A DNA stretch of 64,000 bases, from positions 62,001 through 126,000 of the forward strand of contig NZ_QPIE01000004.1 in the NCBI RefSeq assembly GCF_003336205.1, read 5' to 3'. The stretch is from Chryseobacterium lacus (lineage in GTDB: Bacteria > Bacteroidota > Bacteroidia > Flavobacteriales > Weeksellaceae). Below the pieces are notes generated by a model. That model made no database searches. It was not told the origin of the DNA and worked only from the letters and a program-made list of their open reading frames with translations. Made by a program: the position numbers and the translations under genes. Shown piece after piece: positions 39,484 to 42,018 of the stretch (position 1 is its first letter; each line of letters opens with the position of its first letter).

Positions 39484-39498
39484 TAATCTTTTAAACCA

Positions 39499-39534
39499 AA
39501 AAGTCCTTCCGCAACTGTGGAAGGACTTTTTTTT
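39499..39534. terminator. Bidirectional intrinsic terminator
   Basis: AAGTCCTTCC (39501-39510) and GGAAGGACTT (39519-39528) pair perfectly with an eight-base loop. T runs follow on the plus strand, and five A precede it, giving five T on the minus strand. It serves the RlpA-like gene and the convergent Mur-like gene ending at 39553. Confidence 0.85.
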
Positions 39535-39552: not shown

Positions 39553-40098
39553 TCACATTGAAGAAACCGCCAGCAACGCCTCATAAAATTCTTCTTCCAT
39601 CAGCCCGAATTGTTGACAACATAATCTGAGGCCTTCCAGATGCATCATCGTGTCTGATTTCTGAATTTCCAAGGGTAGTTCGCCTAAAGATGTTTTAGCG
39701 ATAAAATAGCCGTCTTTCTGACTGTATTCGGAGGTGCTGTAGGGAAGTTGTCTGAAATAATTTGAGGTTTGTTGTAACGCTTCCGAGAAAATAACGTGAT
39801 TTTCTGGATAAATTAGAACTCCGCCCGAAGTCATCTTGCTGACAAGTAATTGGCTTTCCTCAGCATTTACAGGTGTTGTAATCAGTGCGATATTAGGCCG
39901 GAAATCGGAACCTGCGATGAGGTCCTGAGTGGAATAAAGCGCAAAATCGTTTCCTGTATCCGTGGAAGTTTCAGTAATCTCATCAAAATTTTTTCCATGA
40001 AAGTTCAAAATGTTTTTAAGCAGTTGCTGCACTTCATTTCCTGCGACAAGAACCCGGGTTTTATGTTGTGCTTTCTCAAAGGCGTCAGCGATGTTCAT
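39553..40098 (-). CDS. Truncated Mur-ligase-like protein without ATP-binding loop
   Basis: A 181-residue protein that looks like pieces of the UDP-MurNAc-tripeptide ligase Mpl joined together. KTRVLVAGN (13-21) sits where Mpl/MurC have KTRVxxxGxHGKT, but the GxHGKT loop is lost. FRPNIALITTPV and SGGVLIYPENH match the central-domain strands. The end, GYFIAKTSLGELPLEI then GLRLCCQQFGLMEEEFYEAL, matches the Mpl segment that leads into its C-terminal domain, which is missing. No ATP site remains, so it cannot be a ligase. It could bind muropeptides or a Mur protein. It is the last gene of a Nudix-plsC-lipoprotein operon. The match comes from memory of the family, not a search. Confidence 0.7.
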   Translation of the reverse strand: MNIADAFEKAQHKTRVLVAGNEVQQLLKNILNFHGKNFDEITETSTDTGNDFALYSTQDLIAGSDFRPNIALITTPVNAEESQLLVSKMTSGGVLIYPENHVIFSEALQQTSNYFRQLPYSTSEYSQKDGYFIAKTSLGELPLEIQKSDTMMHLEGLRLCCQQFGLMEEEFYEALLAVSSM

Positions 40099-40117: not shown

Positions 40118-40555
40118 TTAGGGGTTTGTATTCAGTTTGGATTTCAGAAGCTCCTGAAAAGCCTGTGTCACACGATCCCATTTTTCCTGGTCTTGTTCCA
40201 TGATGTAACTTGCGTCACTTTTGCTGGCAGATTGCTGACCGACATTAACTTTTATGGTAGTACTGATGTAATCGTAGAGTTTTTTTCGGTCTTCCTGTAT
40301 CATCCGAAAATTATTCGCAGCCAATACTTCTTCTAGTTTTTGAATTTCGTCGGAAGAAATCTTAAAATTTTTCTTGATTTTCTTTCCCTGGCCTTCGAAA
40401 GAATAATGCGCTTTATTCCCTTTGATGAGAAAGTTTTCATACACAGGTGCAAAACCTCCGCTTCTGGAATAACTGTAATCATAATCGGAATACACTTTTT
40501 GTGTGTTGCAGGAAGCGATAAAAAACAAGATGAGCAGGAATGTTATTTTTTTCAT
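40118..40555 (-). CDS. Predicted lipoprotein of unknown function
   Basis: A 145-residue protein with a lipoprotein signal (LFFIASC, Cys16) followed by a Tyr/Ser-rich segment (SDYDYSYSRSGGF). The rest is a soluble alpha/beta region with FKISSDEIQKLEEVLAANNFRMI and a helical tail WDRVTQAFQELL. I do not recognise a named family. The pattern of a short periplasmic domain with STTIKVNVG resembles DUF6438-type lipoproteins, but weakly. It starts nine bases after the plsC stop and ends 19 bases before the Mur-like gene, so all are one operon. The promoter of the unit is near 42023. Confidence 0.6.
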   Translation of the reverse strand: MKKITFLLILFFIASCNTQKVYSDYDYSYSRSGGFAPVYENFLIKGNKAHYSFEGQGKKIKKNFKISSDEIQKLEEVLAANNFRMIQEDRKKLYDYISTTIKVNVGQQSASKSDASYIMEQDQEKWDRVTQAFQELLKSKLNTNP

Positions 40556-40564
40556 ATAAAGAGA

Positions 40565-41377
40565 TTAGGAAGGTAATTCTGCTTTTTTCTTTGCTTTCAG
40601 TTCTTCTTCATACTGATGCAATAAATTAAAATCTTCAGTCTGTTCTATGGAAATCATAATTTTGGTCAGAATTTGCTGTGCTGTTTCGGTTTCATAATCT
40701 ATTTCCAGCGGTTTTTTAAACTCCAGCGTCGGACGTACTCCGGTTACTTTTATGCGAAGTCCTCTTTTATCAAACGCTCTTCTGAAGCCATTTATTTTGA
40801 TGGGAACAACAATGGGCCTTTGGTTTTTCACCAGTTTGGCTGTTCCTTTTCTTCCCTGCGCAAAAGCGGCAGTGGTTCCCTGTGGAAAAGTAATCACCCA
40901 GCCGTTGTCCAAAGCTTTCATAATATTGTCCACTTCGGTCATGTCCAGCAACCGGTTTACATTTTTGCCTTCAGCGCGCCAAGTTCTTTTCACGGTAACA
41001 GCGCCTGCAATTTTAAAAATTCGGGCGAGAATCCCTTTGTTCATGGTTTCTTCCGCTGCTACGTAATAGAAATCTACTTTGGGGTTCAGCAGATATACCG
41101 GATTTTTAATGGTGTTTAAATAGCCGTTATTTACAGCACAGAAAGCGTGGTACATCGCAGCTACATCAGCAAAATAAGTCTGATGATTAGAAACAAAAAG
41201 TACGTTGGAATCGGGCAAATCCAGAAGATGTTCGGTTCCTGTTATCGTCAGTTTATTGAACCCGTTGAATCTTCTGTAAGAAACAATTCCTAAAATAAAA
41301 ATAATCAGTCTTTTGAAGACATACGGTGTACCAAATGCATCGGTGAAAATGTTCTTTTTCGCCATTCGTTTTAACAT
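40565..41377 (-). CDS. 1-acyl-glycerol-3-phosphate acyltransferase family protein
   Basis: A 270-residue PlsC-like acyltransferase of phospholipid synthesis. The active-site block is SNHQTYFADVAAM. It has five residues between His and Asp instead of the usual four, and the second motif FPEGTR appears as FPQGTTAAF. Both changes may be lineage-specific. The frame continues upstream to 41446, but that overlaps the Nudix gene. I use ATG 41377; ATG 41365 is equally possible. A -7 box TAACTTTG (minus strand, plus 41384-41391) lies six bases before ATG 41377. The following lipoprotein starts nine bases downstream. Confidence 0.85.
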   Translation of the reverse strand: MLKRMAKKNIFTDAFGTPYVFKRLIIFILGIVSYRRFNGFNKLTITGTEHLLDLPDSNVLFVSNHQTYFADVAAMYHAFCAVNNGYLNTIKNPVYLLNPKVDFYYVAAEETMNKGILARIFKIAGAVTVKRTWRAEGKNVNRLLDMTEVDNIMKALDNGWVITFPQGTTAAFAQGRKGTAKLVKNQRPIVVPIKINGFRRAFDKRGLRIKVTGVRPTLEFKKPLEIDYETETAQQILTKIMISIEQTEDFNLLHQYEEELKAKKKAELPS

Positions 41378-41383
41378 AATCTG

Positions 41384-41391
41384 CAAAGTTA
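41384..41391 (-). promoter_or_regulatory. -7 box for the acyltransferase gene
   Basis: Minus-strand TAACTTTG matches TAnnTTTG. The G lies six bases before ATG 41377, so a transcript from here would be leaderless or use ATG 41365. It lies across the end of the Nudix gene. No TTG at the -33 distance. Confidence 0.4.
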
Positions 41392-42018
41392 CATATTTTT
41401 CAAAACCTGGCTGAATTCGCTCAGAATCATGGAAGTGGCTCCCCAAATGCGATAACCTTCAAAATTGATTACAGGAACTTCTACATTTCGCGAACCGGCA
41501 AGCACCATCATTTCAGGTTTATCTGGAAGTTGAAGCAAAGTTGATACCGGAAATTCAATCAGTTCCACAACTTCATTTTTCTGTGGAATGAATGTCGGAT
41601 TTTTTTTGGTGAAAGAAACGAACGGGTGTACATAAAAATTGCTGGGAAGGATGTACACCGGCGACATTTCCCTGATAATACGAATGTAAGGTTTTTCAAT
41701 TCCCATTTCCTCAGATGTTTCTCTGATGGCGGTGTGGGCAAAACTGTTATCTTGCGCTTCACGGCTTCCTCCGGGAAGCGAAATTTGCCCGCTGTGACGG
41801 TCGCGCTCATGCTCTGTACGCTGCATCAAAGGGAAATACCATTCATTATTTTTAAAATACAACAGGATGTTGACTGCCGCAAAACGCGGATTTTTTTCCA
41901 GAATTTCTTCGTAAGAAAAAAGAGGGCGGTAGGGCGGGGAATAAACTGAGTGAGCGTGCTCTCCGTACAGGCTTGTATTTTTTATTCTGTTCAGTAAATC
42001 TCTTCCATCAAATTTCAT
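41389..42018 (-). CDS. Nudix hydrolase, CoA pyrophosphatase-like
   Basis: A 209-residue Nudix protein. The Nudix box is seen as GGSREAQDNSFAHTAIRETS followed by EEMGI, with the LPGG lead-in that marks the CoA/acetyl-CoA pyrophosphatase (NudL/CoaL) group. The FPLMQRTEHERDRHSGQIS segment before it supports that group. It would split CoA into phosphopantetheine and 3',5'-ADP. The -7 box TAAATTTG (plus 42023-42030, minus strand) stands only four bases before the ATG, so the transcript may be leaderless. First gene of a four-gene operon with plsC. Confidence 0.88.
   Translation of the reverse strand: MKFDGRDLLNRIKNTSLYGEHAHSVYSPPYRPLFSYEEILEKNPRFAAVNILLYFKNNEWYFPLMQRTEHERDRHSGQISLPGGSREAQDNSFAHTAIRETSEEMGIEKPYIRIIREMSPVYILPSNFYVHPFVSFTKKNPTFIPQKNEVVELIEFPVSTLLQLPDKPEMMVLAGSRNVEVPVINFEGYRIWGATSMILSEFSQVLKNM

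Follow-up and report, generated by a model that had tools for sequence, protein, structure and literature searches.

In the window analysed here, a stretch of 64,000 nucleotides from a Chryseobacterium lacus contig, a short open reading frame (Table 1) is the in-place orthologue of the full-length Mpl ligase of Bacteroidota (445 aa), reduced to its middle domain. The short form is seen only in genomes that also carry X458, a second, MurC-type ligase; this link is strict, is new here and was absent from the preliminary description of this DNA. The best explanation, which we rate as somewhat better than even, is that the gene is a remnant of mpl, that X458 has taken over the work of the enzyme and that the middle domain has been kept for a non-catalytic role.

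The descent of the gene from Mpl is supported by orthologues, synteny and predicted structure, as its preliminary description had proposed from sequence motifs. Searching with the 181-aa protein returned matches in 78/99 related genomes, either to short orthologues or inside longer, mostly ~450-aa, Mpl-type frames, with close relatives having the short frame and others matching within the longer ligase. By blastp the short protein corresponds to Mpl residues ~97–300 of 445, and in the alignment its frame stops where the C-domain of Mpl began. The by-eye placement of KTRVLVAGN at the P-loop strand, of FRPNIALIT and SGGVLIYPENH in the centre and of GELPLEI...FYEAL where the middle domain ends agrees with this alignment. 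The frame on the reverse strand was likewise confirmed as intact, with 181 aa from an ATG, and so was its operon-like position after the NUDIX, PlsC-like and lipoprotein genes. This arrangement, RNaseG-NUDIX-PlsC-(lipoprotein)-Mpl, is common to short and full forms; the short gene combines the Mpl locus with best matches to Mpl rather than to MurC-F.

Table 1. Coordinates of the short gene, its conserved segments, its neighbours and X458 (window positions unless stated otherwise)
Feature	Position	Strand	Remarks
Short Mpl pseudoenzyme, stand-alone Mur ligase middle domain	39553..40098	(-)	181 aa, ATG start
KTRVLVAGN, former P-loop strand	40036..40062	(-)	Alignment; GSHGKTT of Mpl replaced and shortened
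FRPNIALIT, core strand preceding the deleted GIAWDHINVF Mg loop	39877..39903	(-)	Alignment
SGGVLIYPENH, middle-domain GG turn, invariant	39796..39828	(-)	Both Gly at 1.00 in 56 rows
HLEGLRLCCQQFGLMEEEFYEAL, well-conserved last helices of middle domain	39574..39642	(-)	Alignment
145-aa predicted lipoprotein (by eye)	40118..40555	(-)	Upstream neighbour; weak DUF6438 match below cut-off
Acyltransferase, PlsC-like	40565..41446	(-)	Conserved locus marker
NUDIX hydrolase	41389..42018	(-)	Conserved locus marker
15-bp hairpin with A/T runs	39498..39531		Between convergent RlpA-like and short Mpl genes
X458, complete MurC-type ligase	G000:C21:130156-131529 (L007:994-2367)		Outside the window, in the window genome

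Single-sequence Pfam and NCBIfam scans of the short protein returned no family at E≤10, and PF08245 matches eight other places in the window genome, not the short gene. One short orthologue (L049) gave a weak NCBIfam murC match (E 6.6e-8, 32 bits), and the Mur similarity of the short protein shows mainly through its orthologues and its structure. From 18 short orthologues AlphaFold2 gave a high-confidence model of a Mur middle domain (pLDDT 89.6, pTM 0.87) that fits solved Mur middle domains over its whole length. In the comparison with Mpl and MurC structures for which the preliminary description had called, the top solved match was Neisseria Mpl (3eag residues 92–320, Z 16.9, rmsd 2.8, 176 aligned), tied with MurC of M. 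bovis (Z 16.4); Foldseek's own ranking put a MurC first (7bvb_B, 1.7e-7) and 3eag 38th. Among the matches listed, 47/50 titles named a Mur, MurT or pseudomurein ligase protein, the remaining three being two plastid RNA polymerase entries and one 'sp protein ligand 1'. A short form from genus g11 also has a confident predicted fold (pLDDT 92.9).

The lipoprotein gene ends 19 nt before the short gene. Its product is fast-evolving, and it lies between PlsC and Mpl in many, not all, genomes, being found beside full Mpl as well in two of them (L060, L066). Downstream, the hairpin (folding energy -22.2 / -19.2 kcal/mol) is a possible bidirectional terminator for the RlpA-like and short Mpl genes. 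It was found by folding and was absent from the output of a simple promoter and terminator scan, whose 8 promoter-like sites (5.6 expected) and 2 terminator-like sites (2.5 expected) carry no information.

Both outer domains of Mpl, the N-terminal one for UDP-MurNAc and the C-terminal one for the tripeptide, are missing from the short forms, as are the P-loop Lys and the His loop that binds Mg. That GxHGKT and the C-terminal domain are missing had been noticed before and holds throughout, the P-loop Lys (K114 of full Mpl) being present in 0/56 short forms; the absence of the N-terminal domain and of the D-H-x-N-V-F Mg loop goes beyond that observation. In the alignment the position of the Mg His (H191; PaMpl His210) is a gap in 56/56 short forms, and neither the His nor the Asn of GxHN ranks with the six commonest letters at its position. 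Glu159 of the EGDE motif remains Glu in 35/56. Thus none of four marks of a functional Mpl, the P-loop GxxGKTT, the N-domain, the C-domain and the Mg2-site His, is found. In Das et al. 2011 (PMC3060825), the ATP phosphates of Mpl are assigned to the GKTT loop, the Mg ligands to Thr115/Glu178 and His210 and the adenine contacts to Asn205, His323 and Asn327, partly by analogy with MurC; the N-domain there holds the UDP-MurNAc site, and the C-domain that of the tripeptide. Given the loss of the P-loop Lys and the Mg His, and the absence of both outer domains, we infer that ligase activity of the short form by the known mechanism is excluded. Residues that are retained across the 56 short forms look structural (KTR, GG, YFRK, LxTxxG). 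Also kept are the closing helices, EGxRLxCQQxGIMEEEFYEAL. The conserved residues are largely common to full Mpl and fold-like, and no new motif was seen among them. With its catalytic residues lost, its predicted fold kept and its gene under purifying selection, the short protein qualifies as a pseudoenzyme.

X458 is 29.9% identical to the apparent MurC of the window genome, which is encoded separately, close to MurD and MurE (L006), and looks like the true MurC. X458 scores 329 bits against the NCBIfam MurC model TIGR01082, just below the cut-off of 335.1, and 130 bits against the Mpl model TIGR01081, below the cut-off of 388.7; two full-length Bacteroidota Mpl score just 154 and 169 bits on the latter. 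These two Mpl-type ligases, at L057:5562-6896 and L060:6249-7583, reach neither the mpl nor the murC cut-off of NCBIfam and score higher to murC, and curated annotation may misname such proteins. The X458 P-loop, GTSGKS(T/S), is retained in 43/43 copies, DDYAHNPAK is found in 34/43 and FQPHGY(G/K)PT in at least 35/43, whereas the window genome's own MurC reads DDYAHHPTE and FQPHLFSRT.

In the 60 genomes of the family (Weeksellaceae) in which all frame lengths are known, the 25 X458 carriers comprise 20 with the short form, 3 with no Mpl match and 2 with full Mpl (both of genus g11), and 35/35 genomes lacking X458 have full Mpl (Fisher 1e-14, relatedness ignored). A census of 320 genomes placed X458 in 64 of them, from 16/33 genera: all 56 short-form genomes, three without an Mpl match and five of g11 with both ligases. 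Frame lengths in this census come from the matches listed and cover only part of the genomes that lack X458, so that the strict two-way count is the one made in the 60 genomes. Moreover, in a distant family of the same class (98 genomes) X458 was found in 40/98 and an Mpl-type match in 51/98, both together in 0/98 and neither in 7/98 (Fisher 1e-20, relatedness ignored); the Mpl-type frames there, of 448–483 aa, were assigned by their similarity to A1, and a short remnant that has diverged may have escaped detection. A sample of the phylum had X458 in 4/247 genomes, namely the window's own and three of the distant family. Because X458 and Mpl exclude each other in the distant family and almost always in this one, they probably do the same job, and because the short form is seen only with X458, X458 has, on this pattern, probably taken over muropeptide ligation. 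The exclusion pattern therefore points to X458 as a candidate muropeptide ligase that has gone unrecognised by missing the curated cut-offs.

Three X458-carrying genomes in the family lack the short form, and the short gene may therefore be dispensable. In one, G004, there is no Mpl match and a different gene occupies the site after PlsC; by eye, the frame that follows PlsC there (L282:2438-3784) is Cas9-like. G040 and G031 have no Mpl match either, and are uninformative on the locus because no PlsC was found in them and the locus was not located.

How the family came to this distribution bears on history alone, not on the reading of the short gene. Rather than X458 displacing Mpl, the family ancestor may have had both ligases, with lineages then losing one or the other, and to this we give an even chance. 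X458 has the same neighbours across the family (h304 in 19/20 and rsmI in 14/20 loci, within 1.5-kb flanks) and its family copies form one side of a single branch, which together suggest one entry into the family followed by differential loss. Five g11 genomes, moreover, still carry both ligases. However, the support for that branch is only 73/91, in a tree whose MurC outgroup row sits on a very long branch and whose root is not trusted, and on the rpoB tree 6 changes are required to account for the presence of X458. In the g11 genomes with full Mpl and X458, the Mpl loci are L212, L217 and L218 and the X458 loci L167, L232 and L233; these genomes are in an apparent transitional state.

The number of origins of the short form itself is read differently by different trees. 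Its carriers include a Chryseobacterium sp. MAG (same genus), Kaistella treverensis, Kaistella solincola, Cruoricaptor ignavus and Cloacibacterium rupense (genus g11). Species-type trees require 5 changes (2 forced) or 6 changes (3 forced), and nest the g11 short forms among full-Mpl carriers of their own genus. In the gene tree 20/20 tested short forms share a single branch (100/99), with long branches throughout, and with the catalytic columns removed the 9 tested short forms still group together at 89/87, again with long branches. A clade of g11 short and full forms was not rejected by the AU test (p 0.226). The two g11 short forms match g11-type diagnostic residues at 4 and 5 positions, against a mean of 2.0 and a maximum of 6 in 54 others, which gives an independent g11 origin no clear support. 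A segment of equal length in 53/56 short forms, 8 residues shorter than in two full forms, favours a common origin.

As to what the short protein may do, we propose that X458 would take over the ligation of recycled muropeptide to UDP-MurNAc and that Mpl would therefore be freed from catalysis. The middle domain would then have been kept for a task other than catalysis. Most likely it binds a protein, and it could serve another Mur enzyme, either X458 or MurC, as scaffold or regulator. Such a binding role was probably already present in ancestral Mpl. The E. coli MurC dimer, as described in PMC3060825, has the middle domain of one chain in contact with the N-domain of its partner, and the Mpl residues at this contact differ; by analogy, the contact suggests in concrete terms how the short protein could dock on X458 or on MurC.

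Alternatively, the short protein could be an obligate subunit of X458 and not the remnant of an earlier role. That the short form is never found without X458 in the family, among the frames listed, is in keeping with this, as is the same middle-domain to N-domain contact in E. coli MurC (PMC3060825). Yet X458 stands without a detectable Mpl match in 40/40 of its distant-family carriers (a diverged remnant could be missed there) and also in G004, and it stands beside full Mpl in the five g11 genomes. We therefore think an obligate subunit unlikely. Less probable again is a sensor that still binds nucleotide or muropeptide. The preliminary description had suggested a muropeptide-binding or regulatory pseudoenzyme. 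A regulatory role may hold, but muropeptide binding is unlikely, since the short protein lacks both the N-domain and the C-domain, the places of the UDP-MurNAc and the tripeptide site respectively (PMC3060825); substrate sensing is less likely for the same reason. The same source has ancestral Mur middle domains binding ATP, and the fold is kept by selection, both of which would suit a sensor. Nevertheless, the Mg His loop and the P-loop Lys have been lost, the His and Asn of GxHN do not rank with the commonest letters, and the domains for both substrates are absent; we consider a sensor quite improbable.

Among the matches listed, 56 family genomes have the short form (51 + 3 + 2 by source, the three being g26 genomes and the two G025 and G056, with that of G056 ending at a contig boundary), and internal stops occur in 0/56. 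In nine close pairs dN/dS was 0.07–0.24, with pN<pS in 9/9 and p from 5e-3 to 3e-28, site numbers being approximate. The function that the preliminary description had supposed to be retained is borne out by this purifying selection and by the open frames. Median dN/dS was 0.216 in the short forms (40 pairs) against 0.08 in full Mpl (6 pairs), the neighbours having medians of 0.026 (PlsC), 0.057 (NUDIX) and 0.11 (lipoprotein), and distant short-form pairs, including those with G014, reach 0.5–0.76, close to saturation. The constraint on the short forms is relaxed but real. A pseudogene in slow neutral decay, its frame open by chance after Mpl became redundant, would fit the looser constraint relative to full-length Mpl and the three X458 carriers without an Mpl match. 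The close pairs, however, speak against it, although the distant pairs near saturation count the other way. The simulated neutral probability of an open frame ranges from 0.25 down to 0/1500 per pair, no short form has a stop (the stops in seven alignments of short forms to full Mpl are put down to the alignments continuing beyond the short frame), and a confident fold is predicted in two lineages; we regard decay as highly improbable. 

A split enzyme was rejected because no detached domain or second Mpl was found: relics of the N- and C-domains beside the 56 short loci were absent at E≤0.1 in the flanks searched, both positives being recovered, searches for detached domains in the window gave no match (best E 0.17 and 0.75), and searching full Mpl in 20 genomes found no second copy, with G043 as the positive. 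The check for a complete mpl elsewhere, called for by the preliminary description, thus returned no other Mpl in the window genome, whose other matches to full Mpl are Mur ligases at 23–27% identity. Chance resemblance to Mpl is ruled out by the genome matches, the shared locus, the predicted fold and the solved-structure matches.

A genome of another family in the same order, G070, encodes a 301-aa Mpl (L290:2007-2912) in which the N-domain is present, the P-loop is changed to GSSQRAN, DH is lost and there is no C-domain; it ends at the same middle-domain boundary as the short forms. It seems to represent a separate case and another kind of Mpl pseudoenzyme. X458 was not found on searching that genome, and therefore X458 is not the sole route to such a protein. 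The window genome also holds a stand-alone MurF (L002:1051-2322), above the NCBIfam cut-off, and an 833-aa Mur-ligase frame (L004), which we assume may be a MurF-alanine racemase fusion.

Among known systems, the short form shares ancestry, locus and middle-domain fold with full Mpl but is without its N-domain, C-domain, P-loop and Mg His. It belongs to the same fold superfamily as MurC, the UDP-MurNAc:L-Ala ligase, as the M. bovis match attests, but lies at the Mpl locus, whereas the apparent MurC is encoded elsewhere in the genome. The two plastid polymerase entries among the structural matches (8xzv_J and 9epc_Q) we take to be the MurE-like subunit PAP11. PAP11, which is of MurE type, is a case of the Mur-ligase fold used within a non-ligase complex, the plastid-encoded RNA polymerase; unlike the short form, its chain is much longer and eukaryotic, and it has no link to a displaced ligase. 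MurT of the MurT/GatD amidotransferase is likewise a Mur-fold protein that acts with a partner protein, but its chain is much larger (target length 384, 6gs2_D) and it has been solved with the ATP analogue AMPPNP bound (6h5e). No title among the matches listed in the open-licence PMC literature names a protein such as the short form.

To our knowledge, Mpl is known solely as a recycling ligase. The short gene amounts to a natural separation-of-function experiment, in which evolution took away ligation and left one domain, and if the short protein has a phenotype then Mpl has a second role. Genus g11 offers a setting for studying the transition, since some of its species have both full Mpl and X458 and some have the short form. 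Beyond the family, we offer as a doubtful generalisation that takeover by a foreign or paralogous ligase can pare an old enzyme down to one folded domain with a hidden second role, in this case that of a regulator or scaffold docked on a MurC-type N-domain, and that this has been repeated in Bacteroidota. Were that true, it would mean a non-catalytic role for Mpl itself across the phylum.
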